This document shows, piece after piece, positions 6,523 through 38,037 of a stretch of 38,169 nt of DNA. Origin of the DNA: a virus. Where the stretch lies: the IMG/VR virus record IMGVR_UViG_3300008117_000119, positions 1 through 38,169 of that record; one strand, given 5' to 3'. Positions within the stretch are counted from its first letter, which is position 1; the number at the start of each line of letters is the position of its first letter. A program made the position numbers and the translations under genes. The notes under the pieces were generated by a model that was not told the origin of the DNA, ran no database searches, and worked only from the letters and a program-made list of their open reading frames with translations.

Positions 6523-7365
6523 TTAGTAATTCATTATTAGTACTTCAATTCCTTCATTTTGAGTACCGTCTTTTTTTGCTGCCGCCGCCTTTTTAAAACT
6601 TTTTTCCGACCATTTATATTGTTCTTTTGGAAACCATTCTAAAAGTTGTGGGAATTCATAATAAGATAAACTAAATTTACCTTTAATGGTTTTTAAACAA
6701 TCGGCCAATCTTTTGTGTGTATCGATTGTAAAAATATGATTTGAATAATAATTTTCAGTTTTCCAATATGGTGGGTCCATATAGTAATATGTTGTTGGTG
6801 AGTCATACTTTTCAACAACTTCTTGAAAATCCATATTTTCAACAAACGTTATTTTATCAAAATGTTCACGATATTTTGGGTGTTTCAATTTGTCCATGAA
6901 AATTAAAACCTTACATCTATATTTTCCTTTATAATCCATATAAGATGCAGTTTCAGGTTTCGAACCGGAAAAAACTTGTGTCAAAACGTAAACATATTTA
7001 CATGCAATTTCTAAACTATTTTCGTCAGTAATAACCAATTCATCACTAAACACCTCTTTCTGATATTGATTAAACATTTCTTCAAATTCAGGTGGTGTAT
7101 CTACAACATTTAATTGTTGACATGGGTAATGGGATAATGCCTCATGTAAAACATCATATTGTTTAGCCCATTTCATCAGATTAGAATTTAATCCGTTATA
7201 ATCGTTATAAACAACTGTCTTTAAATTAGGATATTTTTTTAAATCCATATTAAAGAACACCCAAAACATACCAGAAAATCCTTCTACATATGTTTCAATA
7301 TCTTTTGGTATATGAGGAACTATCCATTTACCAATACGAGCCTTACCTCCAATATAACTTATCAT
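6523..7365 (-). CDS. dam: DNA adenine-N6 methyltransferase, D12 (Dam) class
   Basis: 280 aa, the usual size for D12-class enzymes. The N-terminus ISYIGGKARIGKWIVPHIP is the family's first motif (K-G-G-K region). FSGMFWVFFN at about 30-39 is the SAM-binding FxGxG-like motif, VYND at 52-55 binds the adenine of SAM, and the catalytic motif IV is DPPYW at 197-201. The C-terminal NEGIEVLIMNY matches the family end. It transfers a methyl group from SAM to adenine N6, probably in a short palindrome. It may protect phage DNA or mask regulatory sites. It is the first gene on the minus side of the divergent promoter region at 7366-7437. In the Gly-rich SAM loop the usual second Gly is Trp (GMFW), a mild deviation. 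Confidence 0.88.
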   Translation of the reverse strand: MISYIGGKARIGKWIVPHIPKDIETYVEGFSGMFWVFFNMDLKKYPNLKTVVYNDYNGLNSNLMKWAKQYDVLHEALSHYPCQQLNVVDTPPEFEEMFNQYQKEVFSDELVITDENSLEIACKYVYVLTQVFSGSKPETASYMDYKGKYRCKVLIFMDKLKHPKYREHFDKITFVENMDFQEVVEKYDSPTTYYYMDPPYWKTENYYSNHIFTIDTHKRLADCLKTIKGKFSLSYYEFPQLLEWFPKEQYKWSEKSFKKAAAAKKDGTQNEGIEVLIMNY

Positions 7366-12992: not shown

Positions 12993-13584
12993 TGTTAAAA
13001 AATATTCTAAAATTAAACGAAGGGTTTATATCTGTATAAATACTTGAAAAGTTGGATTTACATACAATCCCGTGGAAATTAGACGCCTTTTCTATGTAAC
13101 CTTGTGATGGGACTATTTGCTTGAAAATACCATGTTTGTCACACAAATCCTCACATAAATCGGCCAGAACATTCATTTGACTCTCAGTATAAGAATCCCA
13201 AAAATAGTAGTTTCTCCAATTTCTGACATATGGTTCGGACCTATAGGGATCACCAATCCAATTATTAAGGACACCGGTAATTGTATTTTTATTCAACCAA
13301 CCCAAGTTTTCAATTGCAACTTTAATTTGTTTTTTACTGATTTTGGGGTCATTAAAGGTATTTGAACTATGGTTAGTGTCAAATAGTTGGTATACCATAC
13401 CTAATTTAGAAACAACAAAATGGGGAACATCGTCGTATTCCCCATTTCTTCTGTGCTTTATTTTACTTATAAAATCATCTAATCGTCTTTGTGTGTCATA
13501 TAGAAAAATTTGAGTTTTTTTAGATTTTTTTCTAACTACATTCAATTTTTTCTTATCTAAATTTTCTACGTCTTGTACTAACAT
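12964..13584 (-). CDS. N-acetylmuramoyl-L-alanine amidase-like protein (type 2 fold), divergent metal site
   Basis: 206 aa. The order of elements follows amidase_2/T7 lysozyme: a first strand IFLYDTQRR, then DDVPHFVVSKLGMVYQLFDT (family pattern GYHFVI..DG.vyqL), a central AIENLGWL corresponding to the 'IGVCLVGG' strand, and late FHGIVCKSNF and INPSFNF (family H...DPGP.F / CPSF). Only the second zinc ligand His (in NFHGIV) seems retained. The first His is replaced around FLYDTQ and the last Asp/Cys before Pro is Asn. It may be an endolysin with an altered site or a non-catalytic peptidoglycan binder. It overlaps the membrane protein upstream by 32 nt and is about 4 kb from the spanin-like genes. 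No signal peptide. Confidence 0.6.
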   Translation of the reverse strand: MLVQDVENLDKKKLNVVRKKSKKTQIFLYDTQRRLDDFISKIKHRRNGEYDDVPHFVVSKLGMVYQLFDTNHSSNTFNDPKISKKQIKVAIENLGWLNKNTITGVLNNWIGDPYRSEPYVRNWRNYYFWDSYTESQMNVLADLCEDLCDKHGIFKQIVPSQGYIEKASNFHGIVCKSNFSSIYTDINPSFNFRIFFNNAKERNNGI

Positions 13585-15247
13585 TTCTCGATATTACCTT
13601 TAATGGTGTAGGTGTCGGTGTAGGAGAAACTATAATTTCCTCCTCAGATGTTGGTATTATTACTTTATTATTTTCCAAATCATATATTATTTGATTTGGA
13701 TTCGTATCATCCTTTTCCCAATATAAATCTTCAGTTTGAGATTGTGTACTATAATCTGTTGATTCTGACGTTTCCTCTGTTTCTAAAACCTCCGAAATTT
13801 CCGAATCCAACATTGGTTGTTGGAACTCTATTAAATTTTTTTTTTCATCTTCTTCTGAAGATGTGTTGTTTAACGTGGTAGGTTCTTCACTAAATGTTTC
13901 AGTTTGAACTTCGTTTAAGATTTCATTTACTTCATTCTCAGTTAAAAATGGTTCGGAAATTGTTTCATTTTCCCAATCGTTAAACTGACCATCGTAATCC
14001 TCATTTTGGAAAATATTCTCAGAATTTGGTTCTATAGTAGAAAAATTTTCCATCTCATCTTCTTCAGATGGTTCTATGGTGGAAGAATTTTCATCTATCA
14101 ATCCGTCAGTGTAACCCTCTGCAGGGAAGTTAAAAAAATTGTTTTCTTTTGCTACTATATCAATTTTGTCAAGATATGTCGGTGTAGGGGTTGGAGTACC
14201 ACTTTCTGTTGGTGTTGGTGTAGGAGTTGGTGTTTCTGTAGGTGTAGGGGTTTCTGTTGGTAATGAGGTTGGTGTGGGTAACTCCTCTTTAATTAACATT
14301 TCTTCAAATGGTTTTTTCTTTTCAATCTCTTGTTTGTACTTCTCTGACGCTTCTTTTAACTTGTCGTTAGGTGGTGGTGGGTTTAACAAAACTTCTTCAA
14401 GTTTTTTTAAATCATTTTCACTTAATCTTAATCGGGAAACTTCCGCAACAATATCTTTTGCTTCAACTACCGGTTCTTCTTTTTCATCACCTTTTCTGTT
14501 CATAAGTAAACCATTAAAGGCTATGATTAATGCTACCGCCAATGGGTCGAATACAATTACGATTATGAATATAAAAAATTTAACTACAGTATTAAGTTGG
14601 ACACCAAAAGCTTCGGCAACAAAACGAAATCCACCAACTTCTCTTTCTAAATTTATATTATTGTTTTTAATTGCGTTGATTGAATCTAACGCAATGTTAT
14701 TTTGTTTTGTTAATTCATCTATACGTTTAGATATTGAACTAATTTCTTTATCCGCAGTTCTAATCATTTGTGATACTCTCGCAGTTGATTTATCTTTATC
14801 AATTTGTTTAGATAAATTTGACTCTTGTGAGTTACGAATATTTTGTTGATTATTTAACTGTGTTGTATAACGTTGAATTTCACTTTCGTTTTTTGTTATT
14901 TGATTTTGATAAACGGCAATATCTCTTTCTACTTTTTGTAATCCTAAATTTTGTTGTTGGAACGCATTTGAAAGATAACCAAAGATACCCGCTGATGTGA
15001 TTAACATTAATGTTCCAACTGAAATAGTTAAATACCATTTATTAAAACCTTGAATTGAATCCCATTCTTGTTTCAAATAAGTTGCCGCAACTAATTTTGC
15101 CAATTCTAATGAACCGGCCATCACCATAACTGAAATAGCTGCACCTGCAAATAAAACGCCCAATCCTGTAACAGAAAAATACGCAGCACATCCGGCAACC
15201 AATACTGCCGATACACCAACTAAGTATTTTAACCAATTTTTATTCAT
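13553..15247 (-). CDS. Four-TM membrane protein with coiled coil and Pro-Thr tail
   Basis: 564 aa. Hydrophobic segments at about 7-26, 28-48 and 73-93 are followed by a ~105-residue coiled coil (about 98-203, rich in Gln/Asn/Lys). A fourth hydrophobic segment lies at about 221-248, ending in NGLLMNRKGDEK. The C-terminal ~310 residues are hydrophilic: a TPT-repeat (about 328-357, [20 protein letters not shown]), a long acidic Glu/Ser/Asn region, and a final SPTPTPTPLKVISRNVSTRRRKFR basic end. The topology suggests an inner-membrane protein with a large coiled-coil loop and a flexible tail. The function is unknown; similar multi-TM coiled-coil proteins are frequent in marine T4-like phages. Its ATG directly follows the sigma-factor stop (3-nt gap). 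Confidence 0.7.
   Translation of the reverse strand: MNKNWLKYLVGVSAVLVAGCAAYFSVTGLGVLFAGAAISVMVMAGSLELAKLVAATYLKQEWDSIQGFNKWYLTISVGTLMLITSAGIFGYLSNAFQQQNLGLQKVERDIAVYQNQITKNESEIQRYTTQLNNQQNIRNSQESNLSKQIDKDKSTARVSQMIRTADKEISSISKRIDELTKQNNIALDSINAIKNNNINLEREVGGFRFVAEAFGVQLNTVVKFFIFIIVIVFDPLAVALIIAFNGLLMNRKGDEKEEPVVEAKDIVAEVSRLRLSENDLKKLEEVLLNPPPPNDKLKEASEKYKQEIEKKKPFEEMLIKEELPTPTSLPTETPTPTETPTPTPTPTESGTPTPTPTYLDKIDIVAKENNFFNFPAEGYTDGLIDENSSTIEPSEEDEMENFSTIEPNSENIFQNEDYDGQFNDWENETISEPFLTENEVNEILNEVQTETFSEEPTTLNNTSSEEDEKKNLIEFQQPMLDSEISEVLETEETSESTDYSTQSQTEDLYWEKDDTNPNQIIYDLENNKVIIPTSEEEIIVSPTPTPTPLKVISRNVSTRRRKFR
14175..14275 (-). repeat. Thr-Pro repeat tract in membrane protein
   Basis: An imperfect 6-nt repeat (GGTGTT/GGTGTA on the plus strand) encodes alternating Thr-Pro with Glu and Ser interruptions. 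It is the same kind of linker as in the tail genes at 31700-31900 and 33220-35000, here inside an intracellular or membrane protein. Confidence 0.75.
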
Positions 15248-18689: not shown

Positions 18690-21026
18690 CTAAGAAATTT
18701 TTGTTGTTATGAAATCTATCGTAGATATGTTATCCACTTTTTTAATCATTATAATATTATCTGACCAATTACGTATCAATGGATTATGAGAAATAACTAT
18801 AATATGTTCAAAATAATCTTTGATTTTCTTAAAAAATTCCCCTACCATATCAAGATTTTCATCTGCAATTTTACCAAAAACTTCATCCATAACCACTATA
18901 TTTGGTTTAGGTAATGACGATATTTTGGTTAGTACACTACGAAGTGCCAATGAGGAGATTGTTCTTTCATATCCAGACCCCGAATTGAGTGGTTTCACCA
19001 CACGGGTCTCAGTATCAATCATAATGAACTCAACTTCATTTTTATCATTTACATTTAATTCTAAAATAAAATGACAACTATCAACCAATAAACGGTATAA
19101 TTCTTGATTTAATAACGGTATCATATTTTTCATAATAATCTTTGATATACCGTTTTTACCGTAGATTGTTAAGTATATTTTGAATACGGATAATAATTCT
19201 TCTTCCTTTTTGATTTTATCGATTAACTCATTATTAATATTAATTTTTTCTTCCATATTTGAGATGTTATTTGTATGTTTCTCAATTAAGGAATTTGTTT
19301 GTTTAATATCACCGTTTGCAGTTTCAATTTGAGTTTTTAATTTAATAATTAATGCATCAATTCTTTGATTTTCCTCTAACTTCTTTTTATTTTCTTCAAA
19401 CTTATCTAATCTACTTTGTTTAGTATCAATTTCTAATTGTTTCTGTTCGACTTCTAATTCGTATCTCGCTTTTCTAAGTTTATTTCTTTCGTAATTATCA
19501 AACTCAGTTTTTAACTTCTCATATTCTTCAGATTGTTCTTTTAATGAATCAAATTCAGTTTGATTTAATTCCATATCACGGACAATATTTTGAATTTCAT
19601 TTTGTAATTTTTCAATTTCATCTGTGTGGTCAACATCATCTAACGACCTTTTACATGTGGGACAAATGGTCCCTTCTTCCATTTGTTTGATTAATTTTTC
19701 TTTTTCACCTTTTTCATACTTACATGCAATATCAACGCCTTGTAAGTTCGCCATCTGACCTTTTAATTCTTTATGTTGTTCTTCGTCATAAAATTTAGTT
19801 GGTTCTATAACATCAATATTATCAGCGTTTAATTGGCTACCATTTCTTTGAGTGATTAAATCTTTGATTTCTCTTTCCAATAAAGTAGGATTTGTATTTA
19901 CCAATTCTTTATCAACATCATTGAAACGAGACAATAATGAATCTTCTTTTTCTTTTTCTAATTTAGATAAAGACTTTTCATATTTTTTTAATTCTTTATT
20001 TAATCTTACAATTTCACTATTCGAATTTGTAATACTATCACTAAAAGTATTATTATCAATTTCTAATTGTTTTATATTGTAATTGTTGGAAATAAGTTTT
20101 TTACTCCAATCATTGTACAATTCTTTTGCAATTTCTTCTTTGATTTTTAAACTTTCTAATCCTAAAAATTTAGTAAGTATTTGTCCTCTGGCGGTTGGTT
20201 TAGATTCTATTAACTCTTCCATATTATAACCAGTGGTTAAAATGGTTGATAAGAAATCTTCTTCTGTTCCTATTGCTGAAGCAATAAATGTTTCAGTTTC
20301 TCTTCTCTGTTCACCAGATAAATTTTCAATTGTACCGTCTTCTTTTCTCTTATAAAATTCTAATTTATTAGTGACAGTATAATCGTTAGATTTTGTTTTT
20401 TTCCTAACTACTTTTCTCTCAATAACATAATCGTCCCCGTCAATTGTGATTTCACCTCTAACATTTACTTCATCACTATTTGAAAATTTATTAAAAATTT
20501 CTGAATTTGTTTTTGTTTTAGTTGTTGTGTTAAAAAATAAAAACATTAACAAATCAACGGTTGATGTAGATTTACCTCCAAAGTTTTTTGGTGTGGATTC
20601 AACTACAGTAATGCCAGATAAATCTGTAAAATCAATAGTATTATTATCACCAAATGAAAGAAAGTTAGAAAATTCAACTTTTTTAATATACCATTTATTA
20701 TATCTAACTTTGTTTTGATTCTGTTCATCTATTTGTGTGTTGACTTTATTGTCTAACCTATCAATTAATTCCCATTTTATATCAATATCATTATCCTTAA
20801 TGAAGTCTTTCATTAATTTCTTTTGGTACTGATGGTCTAAGATATTATCTGAAGCCTCTAATGATTCTAAACGTGTGTTGTTGACATTAGTTAAACTCTT
20901 GGTAATAACTTGTACGTTTTTACTTTTATACTTATCTTGGAAATAAGATTTAACTCTTTTTATTTTTTCAGAAGTAAAATTTTCGGGAACATCTTCCCAA
21001 GTTACTTTTATAAATGGATTTGACAT
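18690..21026 (-). CDS. Recombination endonuclease subunit gp46 / SbcC-Rad50-like ATPase
   Basis: 778 aa, longer than T4 gp46 (about 560) because of an extra ~110-residue N-terminus. The ATPase head begins at YIKKVEFSNFLSFGDNNTID (about 113-132), then a Walker A STPKNFGGKST (144-154). Long coiled coils (about 300-450 and 465-640) flank a zinc hook CPTC (455-458). The C-terminal head has an ABC-signature-like NSGSGYERT, Walker B NIVVMDE (709-715), a D-loop and the switch HNPLIR. With gp47 it would form an Mre11-Rad50-type complex that resects double-strand ends during recombination-dependent replication. Walker A lacks the canonical first Gly (Pro instead). Its gp47 partner lies 3.2 kb upstream in the same strand. 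Confidence 0.9.
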   Translation of the reverse strand: MSNPFIKVTWEDVPENFTSEKIKRVKSYFQDKYKSKNVQVITKSLTNVNNTRLESLEASDNILDHQYQKKLMKDFIKDNDIDIKWELIDRLDNKVNTQIDEQNQNKVRYNKWYIKKVEFSNFLSFGDNNTIDFTDLSGITVVESTPKNFGGKSTSTVDLLMFLFFNTTTKTKTNSEIFNKFSNSDEVNVRGEITIDGDDYVIERKVVRKKTKSNDYTVTNKLEFYKRKEDGTIENLSGEQRRETETFIASAIGTEEDFLSTILTTGYNMEELIESKPTARGQILTKFLGLESLKIKEEIAKELYNDWSKKLISNNYNIKQLEIDNNTFSDSITNSNSEIVRLNKELKKYEKSLSKLEKEKEDSLLSRFNDVDKELVNTNPTLLEREIKDLITQRNGSQLNADNIDVIEPTKFYDEEQHKELKGQMANLQGVDIACKYEKGEKEKLIKQMEEGTICPTCKRSLDDVDHTDEIEKLQNEIQNIVRDMELNQTEFDSLKEQSEEYEKLKTEFDNYERNKLRKARYELEVEQKQLEIDTKQSRLDKFEENKKKLEENQRIDALIIKLKTQIETANGDIKQTNSLIEKHTNNISNMEEKININNELIDKIKKEEELLSVFKIYLTIYGKNGISKIIMKNMIPLLNQELYRLLVDSCHFILELNVNDKNEVEFIMIDTETRVVKPLNSGSGYERTISSLALRSVLTKISSLPKPNIVVMDEVFGKIADENLDMVGEFFKKIKDYFEHIIVISHNPLIRNWSDNIIMIKKVDNISTIDFITTKIS

Positions 21027-21032
21027 AGTTTT

Positions 21033-22133
21033 TTATTTGTCAATGAAACCTTTTGTGATTAAAACATTATTTATTAAATCGGATCTTAAATTGTACGCAC
21101 CATTTGTTGAAACAAATGAAACATCAGACCAATCTGTCTCCTTTAATAAATTACTAATTTTTTCTTTTTCGTTTAATATTACAATACCGTATCCTGTCTT
21201 TTTAGGTAGGGATTCAAAGTTATCATAAATTTTCATATTATCCTTACCAAAACAGGTTAAAGGTAAGTATATATCACACTTATCAATCATATTTTTGTTT
21301 CTAGTTGTTGCAACAGAACCACCATCAGACAATGAATATATCTTAATGAATTGATTACATGTGTTAGTATCTTTTTCTATTTTATAATTCTTTGACCATA
21401 TTTGAAATATTACATTTACTTTAACTTCTTTTCCGTCAGGAAAATAAAAATTTGGATTAATTTTTGAACTGTATATTAAATTTAACCCGTTTACTCTAGA
21501 TTTTGTGGACCCTTTTCCATCACTATCGAATAGTTGTGGTAAGATAAATCCAACAAAATCAGCATAATTAGAATGATTAAGAAACCTTAATGCTAAGTTT
21601 GACCTTAAACCAAAAGGTGGGTTCCCAATAACAAGATATTTTTTATTTAAATCGTTGGGGTTCCATTTCAAATAATCACTAATAATAACTCCCTCAATTT
21701 TACTTTCAATATCAATACCTATCCTTCTATCTTCAGGAAGAAAATTATAAAAACTCCCATCTCCTACTGAAGGTTCAACATAAATGTAATCGTCTAAATT
21801 TTCAACGTGTGATTTAACCACATCATTAAAAATTTTCAAACAATATTCTGCAGTTTCTTTTGATGTATAAAATTGGTCTTTGTCTTTAGCCGACAACTCT
21901 GAATAGTTTATGTCAATACCTAATAAATTCGATAAATCAATTTTATAATAATCAGGAACATTTTCTAATTCCATCCATCTTTTGGTTGTACCATCACTGA
22001 TGTTTATTTCTTTAGAAATATGTTTAATACCTTTTCTACCTAATGATATTTTTTCTTTTATTGTTTGGTTATCATTAAATTCAACCCCTGAAAATTTTTC
22101 AATACATTTATATAATATCTCTAATGTTGACAT
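21033..22133 (-). CDS. Adenine-specific DNA methyltransferase with N-terminal HTH
   Basis: 366 aa. Residues ~27-57 look like a helix-turn-helix (RKGIKHISKEINISDGTTKR, then WMELENVP). From ~90 an N6-adenine methyltransferase follows: motif X-like FYTSKETAEYCL, SAM-binding motif I VEPSVGDGSF (119-128), an acidic motif II GIDIES, and catalytic motif IV NPPF (171-174) in VIGNPPFGLRSNLA. The C-terminal ~170 residues are probably the target-recognition region. It should methylate adenine within a specific sequence. The ATG overlaps the stop of the upstream putative nuclease (TAATG at 22131-22135), suggesting a coupled restriction-modification-like pair in which the HTH could provide autoregulation. 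The second adenine methyltransferase in the window is the unrelated D12-class enzyme at 6523-7365. Confidence 0.82.
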   Translation of the reverse strand: MSTLEILYKCIEKFSGVEFNDNQTIKEKISLGRKGIKHISKEINISDGTTKRWMELENVPDYYKIDLSNLLGIDINYSELSAKDKDQFYTSKETAEYCLKIFNDVVKSHVENLDDYIYVEPSVGDGSFYNFLPEDRRIGIDIESKIEGVIISDYLKWNPNDLNKKYLVIGNPPFGLRSNLALRFLNHSNYADFVGFILPQLFDSDGKGSTKSRVNGLNLIYSSKINPNFYFPDGKEVKVNVIFQIWSKNYKIEKDTNTCNQFIKIYSLSDGGSVATTRNKNMIDKCDIYLPLTCFGKDNMKIYDNFESLPKKTGYGIVILNEKEKISNLLKETDWSDVSFVSTNGAYNLRSDLINNVLITKGFIDK

Positions 22134-22819
22134 TAAATCAAAAATTTCTTTATATGATTATGTACAGTTGATAATGGTGTTTCATTATGAATTTTTAATG
22201 TCAAACCCGCATCGATTCCTTTTTCTATTTGTGTTGGTCCGAAATCCATTTTAAAACCGCTTTTACTATCTTTTCTAATATGTGGAGTCACACCAAATAC
22301 TGGATGTTTACTTTGAATATCAAAGTCTGTTGACATAATAGTTAAATATATTAAATGTGGTGTGTAATCTAAAAATACCACTAAGTCACAATCATCTTTT
22401 TGTTTTATATTTTCGTGTTGGAATCTACCGTTTATATCTAATCGTGCGGTTTTATTTTCATATCTATACTTATATCTTTCCACTCTTTCAGTTAGAATTA
22501 AGTATTTTGGGTTTGTCACGACAACATTGATTCTGTTTTCAGTTGATAATGAAATCGAACCTTCGTATATACCATCAGGTTGATTTGTATTATTCTCATC
22601 ATAATCTATATTGATTTCAGAACAGTTTTTACACCACTGAAAAAAAGTTTTTTCACCCACTTTACCACTCTGGTCGATAGTGAGATTATTCATCCCTTCA
22701 TGTGGAGAACCTAACCAAACATTATGTCTTAAATCATAATCGATGGCTTCTTGTAGATTATTTAGTGATATATCAAATGCGGTAACGTGATATAAATCAT
22801 TAATTATATTTCTATTCAT
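22133..22819 (-). CDS. Putative restriction-type endonuclease
   Basis: 228 aa. SGKVGEKTFFQWCKN (51-65) resembles the GK.GE..f..w element that opens many PD-(D/E)XK restriction enzymes. It is followed by QPDGIYEG (80-87), a possible PD strand. The segment TARLDINGRFQHENI (125-139) then DDCDLVVFLDYTPHLIYL is similar in pattern to the 'R....g.fqWe.I...D..v.lgi.P' region of several restriction-like families. No ExK pair can be pinned down with certainty. The coupling to a sequence-type adenine methyltransferase (TAATG overlap) is the strongest support. If active, it could degrade host or competing phage DNA while phage DNA is methylated. Alternatives are a recombination nuclease or a non-catalytic DNA-binding protein. 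Confidence 0.5.
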   Translation of the reverse strand: MNRNIINDLYHVTAFDISLNNLQEAIDYDLRHNVWLGSPHEGMNNLTIDQSGKVGEKTFFQWCKNCSEINIDYDENNTNQPDGIYEGSISLSTENRINVVVTNPKYLILTERVERYKYRYENKTARLDINGRFQHENIKQKDDCDLVVFLDYTPHLIYLTIMSTDFDIQSKHPVFGVTPHIRKDSKSGFKMDFGPTQIEKGIDAGLTLKIHNETPLSTVHNHIKKFLI

Positions 22820-22821
22820 TT

Positions 22822-23133
22822 TTACTTACTTGGTCTGTATTCTTCGAAGAACTCGATTATGGCATTTATTGCCCAAACAGAACCAGCGGTAAACATACCG
22901 TCAAAAAATAAATCAATAATCCATATCGTATGAAAATATTGTGCAGATAAACTACCTAAAAAAAGTGACATGAAAAATCCAACCCAAGTTGAGGTACATA
23001 AAGTACAACTAATCAAATCACCAAAAAATTTAGAGTTTCTTTTTATCCATTCTCTTGTGGACTCAAAGATTGACCCCCATACTAATATGGAGGTCATTCC
23101 GTAAGCTGCCATCATATAAAATAATAACATCAT
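22822..23133 (-). CDS. DUF1360-like small membrane protein
   Basis: 103 aa. Three hydrophobic segments (about 1-20, 48-66, 70-92) surround a CTLC pair (C43, C46) in LISCTLCTSTWVGFF. This cysteine motif followed by W-V/G-F is characteristic of DUF1360-type proteins found in bacteria and T4-like phages. It is an inner-membrane protein; its function in phages is not known. It lies between the two nuclease-like genes with gaps of 1-2 nt, so it is part of that transcript. Confidence 0.65.
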   Translation of the reverse strand: MMLLFYMMAAYGMTSILVWGSIFESTREWIKRNSKFFGDLISCTLCTSTWVGFFMSLFLGSLSAQYFHTIWIIDLFFDGMFTAGSVWAINAIIEFFEEYRPSK

Positions 23134-23134
23134 A

Positions 23135-23674
23135 TTACAAAATTGTTTCTAAAACGTAAGTACCGTTTATCAGATTGTATACTTCAACATCTTCTCTTTT
23201 GAATGATCTCCATTCTTCAGTTTCTCCTGTTGTAATCCATTTTGTTTTAAAATGTGCCTCATAACATTTTGCAGGATTTGCAAATGTTTCAGGTCTAATT
23301 AAAATAATTTGTGAAAAATCTTGATTTGTTCTAACAAATAAATTTTTATTCCAACCAGCAGTTTTGCTTGGGTCCCAATATTTGGATTTTCTCCACCATG
23401 GGATGTTTACTGTTTTGAATCCTAAATCTGTTTTTTGATTTAAGTTTTTGTTTGCATCTGAAAAGAAATCACCTGTCCAATTTTTGGAGTGTTCAATTTC
23501 ACATCCCCAAGTTTGGTCTTCTTCAAATAATAAATCAATCCCGTACTTGTTGGGATTTTCAATCATCTGAATGTTCAGTGTCTCTTTTAAAAAGTTTATG
23601 ATTGCTTTTCTCGAAGTGGAGTCATCGTATCCACCCGTGTTGTAGACCTTTGGTCTATACGTTGTAACTGACAT
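23135..23674 (-). CDS. Putative PD-(D/E)XK-like nuclease
   Basis: 179 aa from ATG 23674 (MSVTTYRPKVYNTGGYDD). A GTG at 23704 would add 10 residues but is less likely. The core KYGIDLLFEEDQTWGCEIEH places Asp47 and Glu59-x-Glu61 as in PD-(D/E)XK nucleases with an ExE variant. HSKNWTGDF and FKTVNIPWWRKSKYW follow, a pattern seen in restriction-like phage nucleases (EvE.r..W ... vnip.RK). The lysine usual in the motif is not at its normal place. A 5-bp GAAA-tetraloop hairpin sits at 23700-23713 upstream. Role in recombination or DNA degradation is inferred from the fold and the gp46/gp47 neighbourhood. Confidence 0.5.
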   Translation of the reverse strand: MSVTTYRPKVYNTGGYDDSTSRKAIINFLKETLNIQMIENPNKYGIDLLFEEDQTWGCEIEHSKNWTGDFFSDANKNLNQKTDLGFKTVNIPWWRKSKYWDPSKTAGWNKNLFVRTNQDFSQIILIRPETFANPAKCYEAHFKTKWITTGETEEWRSFKREDVEVYNLINGTYVLETIL

Positions 23675-23699
23675 AAGTTTCTTTTTTATATGTCGTTTA

Positions 23700-23713
23700 T
23701 ACACTTTCGTGTA
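23700..23713 (-). promoter_or_regulatory. GAAA-tetraloop hairpin in leader
   Basis: TACAC-GAAA-GTGTA on the coding strand forms a 5-bp stem with a GNRA loop, 26 nt before ATG 23674. A second GAAA-capped hairpin is at 26963-26980. It may stabilise the mRNA 5' end; this is a weak structural observation. Confidence 0.3.
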
Positions 23714-23764: not shown

Positions 23765-24319
23765 TTATTCGTCGTAAAGTGAACCTAAATTGCTACTCTT
23801 AATAAATCTTCCACCACGACTCATGTTATTGATGGAATTTGTTATTTTATCTAAATCACTTTTTAATTTTTCGTTTTCTTTAGTGAGTCTATTGATTTCA
23901 TCCATATTAACCACTTCTTTTACAACCTCAACAATTTTTTCGACAGGTATTTCTTTAATAACTTCTTTTACAACTGTTTTGGTTTTTCCTTGTTTCTCAA
24001 CTGTAACCTCTTTAACAACTTCTATTGGAATTTGTACTTCGACTATTTTTTCAATTGGGACTTCTTTAATTACTTCCTTAATAACCTCTACAGGTATTTC
24101 AACTATTCTTTCCACCTCTTTGATCACTTCAACTTCTTTTTCTATCTCAACAATCTCTTTAATTCTATTTCCTTGTGGAATTTCACCATATTTTAATAAG
24201 GCAAATCCTCGAGAAAATGTCTCTTTAGCTTGTTTTTGTATATCGGGGATGTTGTTTAATTCACAATATTGTGTGAATTCTTTATCCAAGGTTAAGGTGT
24301 ACTTCTTTTCCATCTTCAA
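23765..24319 (-). CDS. KEV/VEIPVEV-repeat coiled-coil protein
   Basis: 184 aa. A folded N-terminus (1-50, KYTLTLDKEFTQYCELNNIP, RGFALLKYGEIPQG) leads into ~85 residues of alternating Val/Ile/Glu/Lys repeats (IEKEVEVIKEVERIVEIPVE and on), with Pro at regular spacing. A leucine-type coiled coil (about 140-165, INRLTKENEKLKSDLDKI) and a short Ser/Gly tail follow. The repeat resembles a long thin rod. It starts inside the 3' end of the gp47 gene (38-nt overlap), between the two recombination subunits, so it may act with that complex. No known family was recognised with confidence. Confidence 0.65.
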   Translation of the reverse strand: MKMEKKYTLTLDKEFTQYCELNNIPDIQKQAKETFSRGFALLKYGEIPQGNRIKEIVEIEKEVEVIKEVERIVEIPVEVIKEVIKEVPIEKIVEVQIPIEVVKEVTVEKQGKTKTVVKEVIKEIPVEKIVEVVKEVVNMDEINRLTKENEKLKSDLDKITNSINNMSRGGRFIKSSNLGSLYDE

Positions 24320-32997: not shown

Positions 32998-35900
32998 TTA
33001 TTGTTGAACGCACTTAGTACCATCTGTACATCCACCTTCAACACCATATACTGTTGGTAAATCATTTGTATTTTCAGGTGCATTTATGTCTGTAATTGTA
33101 TAACAAGCTCTTACACCTGTATTCATAAATCTGACAACATCATATAATGTTAACGACAAAATACTTCTATAGTTAATACCTACACTACCGTCACAAGGTG
33201 TTAACGTATAGTAATTGTATGCCGGTGGTGGTGGAGTTGATGTTGGTTCGGCTGTTGGAGTAGCTGTAGGTTCTGGTGTAGGTGTTGCTGTTGGTGGTAA
33301 TGGTGTAGGTGTTGCTGTTGGTGGTAATGGTGTTGGAGTTGCAGTTGGTAACGGAGTTGGAGTCGCTGTTGGTACCGCTGTTGGGGTAGCTGTTGGTAAT
33401 GGTGTTGGTGTTGCTGTCGGACAAGAAAAACATACGTCAAGAGCGGTCGCTGTATTCGTACTACCATTCTTTTGGTATTGTCTTATACTTCCGCCAGAAC
33501 TTAACCAAAATAAACCATTGGAATCTATTTCAGATAAGATAATTGAGGCACTAACAGTAGTTGAATTACATAGTCCGCTTCCACTACCATAGAATGAGTA
33601 TGAACCAAATGTTAATCCATCACAATTACATGTACTTCCTTCACTAAAATTACCAATACATGCCGTAAATGGTGCTATTGTTGGAGTAGGTGTAGGAGTC
33701 GCTGTTGGTAATGGTGTTGGTGTTGCTGTTGGTGGTAATGGTGTAGGTGTTGCAGTTGGGGTTGATGTTGGTGTAGGTGTAGGTGTAGCCGTTGGTGGTA
33801 ATGGAGTTGGAGTTGCTGTTGGTGGTGCCGTTGGAGAAGGTGTAGGTGTTGCCGTTGGTAACGCAGTTGGTGTAGGAGTTGGAGTTGCCGTTGGACATGA
33901 TACACAATCACCTTGTTGTGTTGCGGTGCTTGTACTACCATTTTTTCTATAATATCTTGAATTGGTTCCATCGCTTACCCAGAAATATCCATCATTAGTT
34001 ATTTCTGACAATATTATACCTGCAGTAATTGTTGTTGAATCACATAATCCACTACCATTACCTTGGAAACTAAATGAACCATATGCCAATCCATCACACG
34101 CACAGGCACTTCCTTCACTAAAATCACTTATACATGCCGTAAATGGTACTGGCGTTGGAGTAGGTGTTGGGGTTGAAGTTGGTGTTGGTGTAGGTGTTGC
34201 CGTTGGTGGTAATGGTGTAGGCGTAGCAGTTGGTGGTGCCGTTGGTGATGGAGTAGGAGTTGCGGTTGGTGATGGGGTAGGTGTGGATGTTGGTTCTAAT
34301 GTTGTAGTTGCAGTTGGTGATGGGGTAGGTGTAGATGTTGGTAACGGAGTTGGGGTTGGTGTACTCGTTACAATTATTAAGTCAACATCGAAATCACATA
34401 CGGGTGTAGGTGTTGGGGTTGGTGGTGCTGTTGGTGTAGGAGTTGGCGTACTAGTGATTATTGTTAAATCAACATCGAAGTCACACACTAGTGTAGGTGT
34501 AGGTGTAGGAGTCGGAGTTGGTGTAGGGGTTGGTGGTGCAGTTGGTGTAGGTGTGCTAGTGATTATTGTTAAATCAACATCAAAGTCACATACTGGTGTA
34601 GGTGATGGAGTTGGAGTTGGTGTACTAGTTATAATTGTTAAATCAACATCAAAATCACATACAGGTGTAGGAGTCGGAGTTGGTGTAGGTGTGCTAGTGA
34701 TTATTGTTAAATCGACATCAAAGTCACATACTGGTGTAGGAGTTGGTGTACTAGTTATAATTGTTAAATCAACATCAAAATCACACAATAGTGTAGGTGT
34801 TGGGGTTGGAGTTGATGTCGAAGTTGGTGTAGGGGTTGGTGTATTAGTTGCCGTAGGTGTTGGAGTTGATGTTGGTGGTGCTGTTGGTTCGGCTGTTGGA
34901 GTTGATGTTGGTGGTGCTGTTGGTTCGGCTGTTGGAGTTGATGTTGGTGCCGCAGTTGGAGTTGCTGTTGGTGGTACTGTAGGAGTTGGTGTAACTAAAA
35001 TATATTCAGCCGTACCTCCTGTAAATGTACATCCAGTATATCTTGTATAAGACGAAGTTCCTCCACTAAATTTACAATCAACCCTATCATTGTCACCAAT
35101 ACCGACTAACATGAAATCAAAATTATCCATTATTGTACAATCATTTGGACCGTACTTGTAAGATGTAAATTTTATTCTTTCTTCACCATTTCTATCAATA
35201 TAAAAATCGTAACTTATTAATGGAAATATTTCGGTTGAACCCGTAATACCCGAATAATTTATATAATCACCATAATCATTATTGTAACCCAACTGATCAC
35301 GAGTATAACCCGATGTTGAATTTATATAACTTATTACATTAGGTATTTTACTTCTCCACAACGACTTAATTTCATCATAATCAGGGTCTAACGCATTTGA
35401 ATTTGTTGCACCAGTGTATAGTTGTGCACTAACACCAGATATTGTTGTGTCTCCAGATATTAAAACATAATGATTTGAATTGTTTGTTTGTCCTGAATAT
35501 ATAACACCGTCGATATTAAATGCCGGATAAAATTTTATAAAACCATCATGTAACGCTTCACCATATTCTTCAACTTCAGTTGTAAAATGTAATAAACTAT
35601 CGTAATATAATATTTCTTCCTCAAAATAATTTGATGTTTCTCCGGTAGGTTGTGGATAGACATAATCATTTATAAAAATAGGTTGACACCCGTATCTATA
35701 TTGATACTTTGGTCTACCGAAAACTCCGTTACTAATTAAATTACCTCCAGTCCATAATGTTGTTGCAGGTATAAATTGTTCTAATATTTGAACCCAATAT
35801 GGTGTGATTTTATTTATAAACTCATTAACATCAATAAAATTATAAGGTGTGAAACCTGTTTGTGTTATATAATCTTGATAAATGTCTTCAAGTTTAATAT

Positions 35901-38037
35901 AATTTTTTTTGTATTTTATAATGTGTGAATTTTTTATTTGTTTGTTCATCACACTATTAACAAATTCAGCAAAGGTTACACCTGTTTGTGGTTCTAAAGA
36001 ATTTGTACCAAAAGTAATTTCAAGTTCTCTTGATTTTCTCCATATATCATAATCAACACCTTGTGCTGGTGATATAAAAATATTAATGTTTTTTCTACCT
36101 AAAATAAGTGGTGAGTTGTCATCAGATAAACTTGTAAAGTCATTGTCTATTTCACTCTTTAATTCATAACCCGTATCTAAACCTGGCAGTGTTCTATAAT
36201 AATCAAAATAATCTTCACCATATGTATATGGTTTATTTTTTGTTACCACATCTTTTATTCTGCCAGTTAATGTTGAATTTTCTTCATCTATAATTGTAGA
36301 TGATCTATGTTGTAAAGTTAAGTCATACCAACCCGCACCTTTCTGATAAAAGTAATCTCCTGTTGTTCCGGTAATTGCTCTCGGGAAAAATGTTTCTTCT
36401 TCAACGGGATACCCAGCACGATTTAAAACTGTTGAACCTGTTGTTGTACCGGTTGCGTATGAATATGCCCCATATGTTACTCCATTTCTTGTTCCACCTG
36501 TTGGAAGGAATTCTAATGTTGTGTATGTTTTGGTTCCAGCAATTACTTCATATATGTCACCTTCTAAATCATTTGATTTTGGAAAAGATGTTACACGGTA
36601 AATGTATTGGTCCACCTTAATTAAAGGTTCGGGTGCCCCTAAAAATCTAAGGAAAAATTCAATCGATTTTCTAGTTCCCTTTGATTTGTATAGATGTGCT
36701 AAATTTACAAGTAATCTTCTATAAAATTCATGTTCAGCTTCGGTGGCCGACATTGATGAACCAACTCCATCATAATTTGTTGTTACCTTAGTGTACAACA
36801 AATCATCTAATGAATTACTATTAATTAAATCGTATGTTTCTAAACCAAGTGTATTTGATAAATTTTTAAGTAATAAATCGGGTAAATTATTTATACCATC
36901 ATAAGTTACATTTCTCATGTAAACTATGTTGTCAATGTATTTCTTTACATTATCAAAACTCTGTCCATATATTTGAAATATTGATTTAGTTCTTTGGTCA
37001 TCAGTATCAAATTCAAATAATTGAGGTGATGCTAAAAATCTTACAAATAAATTTGATTTGTAATCATCAATTTCATCCGCAACATTAATTAAGTCATCAA
37101 TATATTTTTCATATGAAAGACCAACAATTTGTAAGTTCCAATTGTCTTTATCTGAAACAGGCCAATTATATTCTATTGAAACTATTTCAGTTTTGGAACC
37201 ATCGAAAGTATCTCTTGGAACTCTGAAAGATGCTGTATATATTGGTGAGGATTCTCTATTTAATAATGTACTCTCCAAATCATCAAGAGATTGGAAAAAT
37301 TCTTCTGTTACTCCATCATTTGGTCTTATTAAAATATTTTCACTATAACCTGTAGAACCACTAAACGGATTTCCAGATACTTTTAAAGTTGAAACGTTTT
37401 GACTTGTTGGTTCAGTATAATTTAATACATCATATAACTCATTGTTTAAATCTAAAACATATTTTTTATATGATGAGTAAAACTTTCTTAATGGATTTTC
37501 AACGTCAGGTTCCTCATTACTTAATGGTTTTTCAATTAATAAATCAAAAGGATTATATAACATGTTAGTTTCAAAACTAAATGTTGTTGTATTGGTATTA
37601 GTATCATAATTAATACCATATGCCGTGTAACCACTTACCGAAACGTAACTATCCTTATCAATTAAAAGTCCTGCAGGAAAATTACCTATTATATTTTTTA
37701 CCGAAACATAAATTCTTTCTCTAAGTGAACCAAACAATGATTTGGAGGCGTTGTTTTTGTCTCCGTTGAATTTTATTTCTTTATTTTTTGAATTGTTTGA
37801 TACTGTTCTATTTTCACCTGTAGATGTCTCTCCCTTCAAATCATCTAAAGTAAGAAAATCCGAAAAGGGATTGGTCTTGAATTTTTTTGGGTCTTTCTGT
37901 GTTACTAATGTATCTAAAGCAAAGTTCGTATTAGACAATTGGCTAGTACCGTCGGTAATTTGTCTACCGACTAAACTATCACTAAAAGTTTCACCTCCAT
38001 TAACTGCACTACTAGGAACTTTTCTTCTAACTGCCAT
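32998..38037 (-). CDS. Giant baseplate-like protein with repetitive C-terminal extension
   Basis: 1679 aa. The N-terminal ~1000 residues look like a structural baseplate protein. Around residue 445 is [20 protein letters not shown] followed by LGAPEPLI, matching the 'yrsKGT...ie.fl' element of P2 gpI-like tail proteins. The C-terminal ~670 residues are a different world: Thr-Pro linkers, six copies of CDFDVDL(T/I)I(I/V)TS, then two ~78-aa Cys-rich modules (starting [12 protein letters not shown] and [12 protein letters not shown]) separated by more Thr-Pro rods. A final domain [14 protein letters not shown] ... CVQQ ends it. It may combine baseplate anchoring with a long cell-contacting arm. 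The ATG overlaps the stop of the upstream gene (TAATG). Domain-level function beyond this is inference. Confidence 0.75.
33220..35000 (-). repeat. Thr-Pro linkers and repeated modules in the giant gene
   Basis: Thr-Pro tracts lie at about 33223-33420, 33682-33894, 34147-34375 and 34800-35000, built from GGTGTT/GGTGTA/GGTGGT units on the plus strand. Between 34375 and 34800 six near-identical ~45-nt blocks encode the CDFDVDL element, spaced by variable Thr-Pro runs. Two ~240-nt blocks at about 33425-33670 and 33890-34145 encode duplicated Cys-rich modules. The differing linker lengths point to repeat expansion and contraction. Confidence 0.85.

Follow-up and report, generated by a model that had tools for sequence, protein, structure and literature searches.

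Type II restriction-modification (R-M) systems whose DQFYT-type DNA methyltransferase (MTase) carries a fused, helix-turn-helix (HTH)-like N-terminal domain occur in Mollicutes (L138, L140, L143, L151, L152, L154 and L159), where they combine proteins of the PDLC03498 and PDLC03280 types. In T4-type phages, free-standing homing endonucleases lie beside replication and recombination genes and are gained or lost between relatives. Type II enzymes are known from phages but have been termed rare (PMC4081073), most phage Type II systems in a survey of gut phages are methyltransferases only (PMC10711547), and R-M is listed among the weapons that jumbo phages direct against rivals (PMC7824862). Large viruses of eukaryotes, the chloroviruses and marseilleviruses, carry complete Type II R-M systems which, according to the part of PMC7253447 drawn on here, are thought to exclude rivals or to degrade host DNA; chloroviruses package restriction enzymes, which contribute to the degradation of host DNA, and the marseillevirus system does not degrade host DNA. 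This part of the source describes no swappable slot comparable to the one reported below. In the open-licence literature, searched mostly through titles and abstracts, we found no paper on an exchangeable R-M cassette slot in a phage lineage; the swappable slot therefore looks new, whereas phage-borne Type II systems themselves were already known.

The locus that we compare with these systems lies in a 38,169-base virus record (IMG/VR IMGVR_UViG_3300008117_000119, positions 1 to 38,169), the whole of which we call the window. The window also encodes gp46-like and gp47-like proteins, an exonuclease (PHROG 298), a DnaG-type primase, a sigma factor and a head-maturation protease. Because this protease is 64% identical to its counterpart in a 634,780-base uncultured phage, and because relatives found through gp46 lie on contigs of up to 335,630 bases, we regard the window as probably a fragment of a large phage. 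An earlier note on this DNA, made without database searches, had proposed two overlapping genes, a restriction-type nuclease and an adenine MTase with a built-in HTH. Both open reading frames are present on the minus strand at 22133-22819 (228 aa) and 21033-22133 (366 aa), and the overlap is real: in TTTAATG, one base is common to TAA and ATG. Together the two genes occupy the entire stretch from a DUF1360-family gene to gp46, leaving gaps of only a few bases. We consider it likely that they constitute a phage Type II R-M cassette, consisting of a PD-(D/E)XK restriction endonuclease homologue and an HTH-fused adenine-type MTase, held in a slot that exchanges R-M-like cassettes (Table 1).

Table 1. 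Features of the nuclease-MTase pair, its slot and related loci (window coordinates unless a locus is named)
Feature	Coordinates	Strand	Basis
PDLC03498-type homologue of Type II restriction endonucleases (228 aa), predicted PD-(D/E)XK	22133..22819	-	bacterial-only profile 5.8e-16
GKVGE, residues 52-56; Glu56 in the predicted first helix of the core	22652..22666	-	15-row alignment
Glu86 (codon GAA), aligned with the catalytic Asp of the family	22562..22564	-	Asp nearly invariant in other rows
Insertion of about 20 residues (97-116) before ExK	22472..22531	-	alignment A1 with syntenic phage homologue
Predicted catalytic ExK, Glu121-Asn122-Lys123	22451..22459	-	E and K invariant, 15/15 rows
Adenine-type DNA methyltransferase, 366 aa, N-terminal HTH-like domain and DQFYT...NPPF catalytic domain	21033..22133	-	PDLC03280, PHROG 5172
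MTase N-terminal HTH-like domain, residues 1-85 (GTTKRW at 21975-21992)	21879..22133	-	found by N-terminal profile of bacterial homologues, 2.2e-11
MTase motif I, EPSVGDGSF, SAM binding	21750..21776	-	positions conserved in alignments A3 and A7
MTase motif IV, NPPFG, catalytic	21609..21623	-	invariant in alignments A3 and A7
Cassette slot between DUF1360-family gene and gp46	21027..22821	-	MTase in 24/80 gp46 loci; ten or more mutually unrelated cassettes
gp46-like (SbcC/Rad50) recombination exonuclease subunit, downstream slot border	18690..21026	-	PHROG 77 2.7e-52; 80 relatives
DUF1360-family protein, upstream slot border	22822..23133	-	PF07098 above cut-off; kept adjoining slot
Small gene and MTase pairs directly downstream of gp46	L066:10362-11629, L070:8660-9923, L072:10365-11760, L080:2787-4047		

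The nuclease is strongly diverged. As a sole query it found no relative in Pfam, PHROGs, NCBIfam, PADLOC or the sequences of the PDB, and no match by tblastn against phages and plasmids or in a scan of viral contigs. A scan of genome contigs with two phage nuclease copies gave no match, searches of PDB sequences with nuclease family profiles found no relative, and an early nuclease profile matched nothing in 398 Pseudomonadota genomes, a search that we deem uninformative. The family was instead widened through Mollicutes: relatives of the MTase led to neighbouring genes that resemble the nuclease, and a search with this family found more. A profile built from the Mollicutes homologues only, with phage sequences excluded, finds the window nuclease at 5.8e-16, with the next window ORF at 1.8 and every unrelated target at 1.1 or worse, a separation that argues against a chance match. 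A profile of the HTH-associated subfamily ranks the window nuclease first among 313 targets (1.3e-19). PADLOC REase_II PDLC03498 recognizes ten of the 11 rows in the first wide alignment, at 1.1e-48 for the best of them; only the window copy stays below the PADLOC report limit, and it also falls under the Pfam threshold. The syntenic phage copy of L031 matches PDLC03498 at 0.0012. By sequence comparison, then, the window nuclease is a divergent member of the Type II restriction-endonuclease family PDLC03498. The neighbour of the MTase in Helicobacter phage Pt11470_1 (L003) was also tried as a nuclease homologue and rejected (BLASTP E 0.07).

Structure prediction was informative for a family member. 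An AlphaFold model of the window nuclease itself, based on three phage rows, was of low confidence (pLDDT 29.5), and the model of the Mollicutes homologue L138, based on 15 rows, reached a pLDDT of 87.7 and a pTM of 0.85. Foldseek returned no match below 0.001 for the L138 model. VIA-align placed the homing endonuclease I-Ssp6803I first (Z 9.2), followed by the restriction enzyme 3ndh (7.9), NhoI (7.7) and Hjc (7.2), with DpnI (6.6), PvuII (5.6) and EcoRV (5.4) at lower Z. Since Z values of about 8 often arise for models that match nothing clearly, we place weight on the top rows belonging so uniformly to a single superfamily and on the conserved E...D...ExK order. The L138 model resembles PD-(D/E)XK nucleases rather than presenting a non-nuclease core, and the fold is accordingly predicted for the family on this homologue, not on the window protein. 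The restriction-type call, which the earlier note had named as its weak link, now has behind it both the family profile match and the homologue's fold.

The catalytic residues had been placed less accurately. Both motifs cited for the nuclease exist, GKVGE at residues 52-56 and PDG at residues 81-83, and in the 15-row alignment G52 is invariant, G55 nearly invariant and position 56 mostly E or Q. The family's catalytic Asp, however, aligns with Glu86 (in IYE), and the Asp of PDG lies four residues upstream of it. The conserved catalytic signature E121-x-K123 (in YENKTARL) had been missed. Of the predicted Asp...Glu-x-Lys center, the window copy keeps the ExK and has the acidic Glu86 in place of the Asp; it also keeps F133, Q134 and H172. 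The nuclease of L031 retains the catalytic Asp. Judged from these residues, the window copy may still cut DNA, may have changed in activity or may be inactive.

Assignment of the MTase is more direct. It matches PADLOC MTase_II PDLC03280 (1.1e-56, residues 79-355) and PHROG 5172 (8.4e-32), and within this homologous domain it has both the SAM motif and the NPPF/Y motif that characterize NPPF-type MTases. These are the motifs on which the adenine-type call had been based, EPSVGDGSF (residues 120-128) and NPPFG (residues 171-175), and the call holds. Motifs related to NPPF can also yield N4-methylcytosine. In alignments, the MTase is 74% identical to a syntenic phage copy and 39-49% identical to the HTH-bearing copies of Mollicutes. 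As candidates for the closest relatives we also looked at the MTases of the Cronobacter GAP32, KIL and Atu_ph07 phages, which are 27-28% identical and have no HTH, and set them aside. Residues 1-85 are missing in four other aligned phage relatives and present in the Mollicutes homologues. A profile of the Mollicutes N-termini finds the window MTase at 2.2e-11, against 0.0032 for the next window ORF, and the HTH-MTase fusion is therefore common to phage and bacteria. What is homologous here is the N-terminal domain as such; that it is an HTH, as claimed earlier, is weakly indicated by its sequence pattern and by low-scoring Pfam matches of single members (YdaS 0.01, HTH_11 0.018, terminase small subunit 0.13).

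The two genes stand next to each other as a pair, as in Type II R-M systems, and the same pairing is found in Mollicutes and in sister phages. Phage and Mollicutes systems have in common the homology of both proteins, the adjacency of their genes, the HTH-MTase fusion and the E...D...ExK core order. They differ in gene order, the MTase coming first in Mollicutes and the nuclease first in the phage, and in that the Mollicutes copies reside in cellular genomes and lack the Glu-for-Asp replacement and the insertion of the window nuclease. Within phages, the pair is syntenic in L031, L033, L037, L056 and L057, with identities of about 31% for the nuclease and 73% for the MTase. The coupling of nuclease and MTase that had been proposed from the overlap is backed by homology, by the structure predicted for a family member, by repeated joint occurrence in Mollicutes and by synteny in phages. 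Helicobacter phage Pt11470_1 provides a more distant parallel: its MTase belongs to the same broad family and is overlapped by a putative nuclease gene with a PD...ExK-like motif of its own, but the MTase has no HTH, comes first, and accompanies a nuclease not detectably related to that of the window.

We gathered 80 loci by means of gp46 and read the stretch from the DUF1360 gene to gp46 in each; many of these contigs are near-duplicates, so our counts refer to loci and not to independent events. A slot MTase is present in 24 of the 80, and in every one of the 24 a partner gene precedes it, in the same order throughout; the slot of L024 holds two MTases. The partner genes fall into ten families that have no detectable mutual similarity. 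Four are recognized as restriction enzymes: the window/L031 type, EcoRI (L028; Pfam PF02963 above cut-off, EcoRI chains 0.009), a BsuBI/PstI-like enzyme (L024; PDLC03445 1.3e-23, with PF06616 at just 0.016) and PDLC03550 (L036; 7.5e-11). The other six have no database match and are counted as putative restriction enzymes by position alone. When the partner genes of the other cassettes were sought in plasmids and phages, no match was found. MTase_II models give strong matches for most slot MTases and a weak one for L047 (3.3e-5); the MTase of L058 scores best with IIG/PglX-type models.

Cassettes are replaced between near-identical flanks. In L031 and L047, the flanking DNA is 95.5% and 96.5% identical, and the cassettes between have no DNA similarity; much the same picture, near-identical flanks around unrelated cassettes, is seen in L026, L020, L024 and L025. 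Counting across the gp46 loci gave 30 MTase-like genes, with a slot MTase in 24 loci and the slot accounting for 8.7% of bases. The remaining six MTases all belong to a more distant clade and lie downstream of gp46, where a small gene precedes the MTase in each of the five cases read. The downstream pairs of L070, L080 and L082 are of the L036 cassette type, the L070 proteins being 51% and 75% identical to those of L036 and the first protein of L080 57% identical. The L036 type thus lies upstream of gp46 in one clade and downstream in another, and the partner-then-MTase unit can occupy either side. Across one lineage of large phages, in short, a single address is filled by ten or more different nuclease-MTase-like pairs, swapped between near-identical genomes, and the slot offers a hunting ground for new restriction enzymes.

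The 56 loci without a slot MTase hold another gene in some cases (g189-like or HNH-like) and only the DUF1360 gene in others. The g189-like genes resemble the slot's 189-aa neighbour in the window (23135-23704), itself without a family match, and fill the R-M slot in 21 relatives (L010-L018 and others). By eye, the 189-aa protein has an acidic pattern, GIDLLFE...EIE, and could be nuclease-like. Three other occupants (L019:7516-8004, L043:7052-7999 and L070:5134-5976) resemble, again by eye, Cys-rich HNH-like, DHH-phosphoesterase-like, and asparagine synthetase or aminoacyl-tRNA synthetase-like proteins. Also kept upstream of the slot is a 184-aa repetitive protein with VEVIKEV-type repeats, probably a coiled coil (23765-24319).

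In our preferred reading, that of an exchangeable R-M cassette, whole cassettes would be swapped, most simply via recombination in the conserved flanks. The MTase would mark the phage's own DNA at a recognition site common with the nuclease, and the nuclease would cut unmarked host DNA and, above all, that of rival phages sharing the cell. The HTH may tune expression or DNA binding, and a change of cassette would bring a change of specificity. Unlike the free-standing homing endonucleases of T4-type phages, the nuclease of the window has an MTase partner, with which it travels as one unit.

A somewhat unlikely alternative holds that the MTase is the selected part, shielding phage DNA from host restriction of the same specificity, and that the window nuclease is a decaying passenger that does not cut. 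The Glu in place of the catalytic Asp and the insertion before ExK would suit such decay, but an uninterrupted reading frame is present both in the window and in its syntenic relatives, the conserved residues E121, K123, F133, Q134 and H172 are kept, and L031 retains the Asp. The faster divergence of the nuclease relative to the MTase points the same way, although restriction enzymes usually diverge fast. The predominance of MTase-only systems among gut phages (PMC10711547) fits a passenger as well; against this, no MTase-bearing slot among our loci is without its partner gene.

It is rather unlikely, in our judgment, that the nuclease serves mainly to degrade the host chromosome for nucleotides, as proposed for the restriction enzymes of chloroviruses. 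Its surroundings, which include genes for replication and recombination (gp46/gp47-like, exonuclease and primase), are compatible with this function, as is the contribution of the packaged chlorovirus enzymes to host DNA degradation (PMC7253447). Against it, the marseillevirus R-M system does not degrade host DNA (PMC7253447), and breakdown of the host needs no frequent swapping of specificity, which is easier to reconcile with conflict between rivals. For this last reason we hold that the cassette more probably serves to exclude rival phages than to break down the host.

Quite unlikely is the proposal of a dedicated R-M exchange slot at the side of gp46, in which cassettes would spread by cutting unmethylated co-infecting relatives and being copied in through gp46/gp47 repair, combining drive with rival exclusion and a fast-changing specificity. 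Least probable are selfish, drive-like cassettes, whose nuclease would cut unmethylated siblings in mixed infections and which would spread by gp46/gp47 repair from the cassette-bearing genome: whole-cassette exchange between conserved flanks, always beside gp46, the homing endonuclease as best structural match and the presence of one cassette type upstream of gp46 in one clade and downstream in another could all be read this way, but the position may merely reflect good recombination flanks, and resemblance to I-Ssp6803I is common to many PD-(D/E)XK enzymes. With natural sister phages that differ mainly in their cassette, the purpose of phage-borne restriction becomes directly testable.

Three further genes of the window lie outside the slot. 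A second DNA methyltransferase gene is found at 6523-7365 (PHROG 56, 1.5e-40). A 564-aa protein encoded at 13553-15247, without a PHROG match, resembles the TacA1 antitoxin over residues 262-305 (PF08681 3.3e-6), and a 1679-aa ORF at 32998-38037, without a Pfam match, has a weak PHROG match (0.00055).
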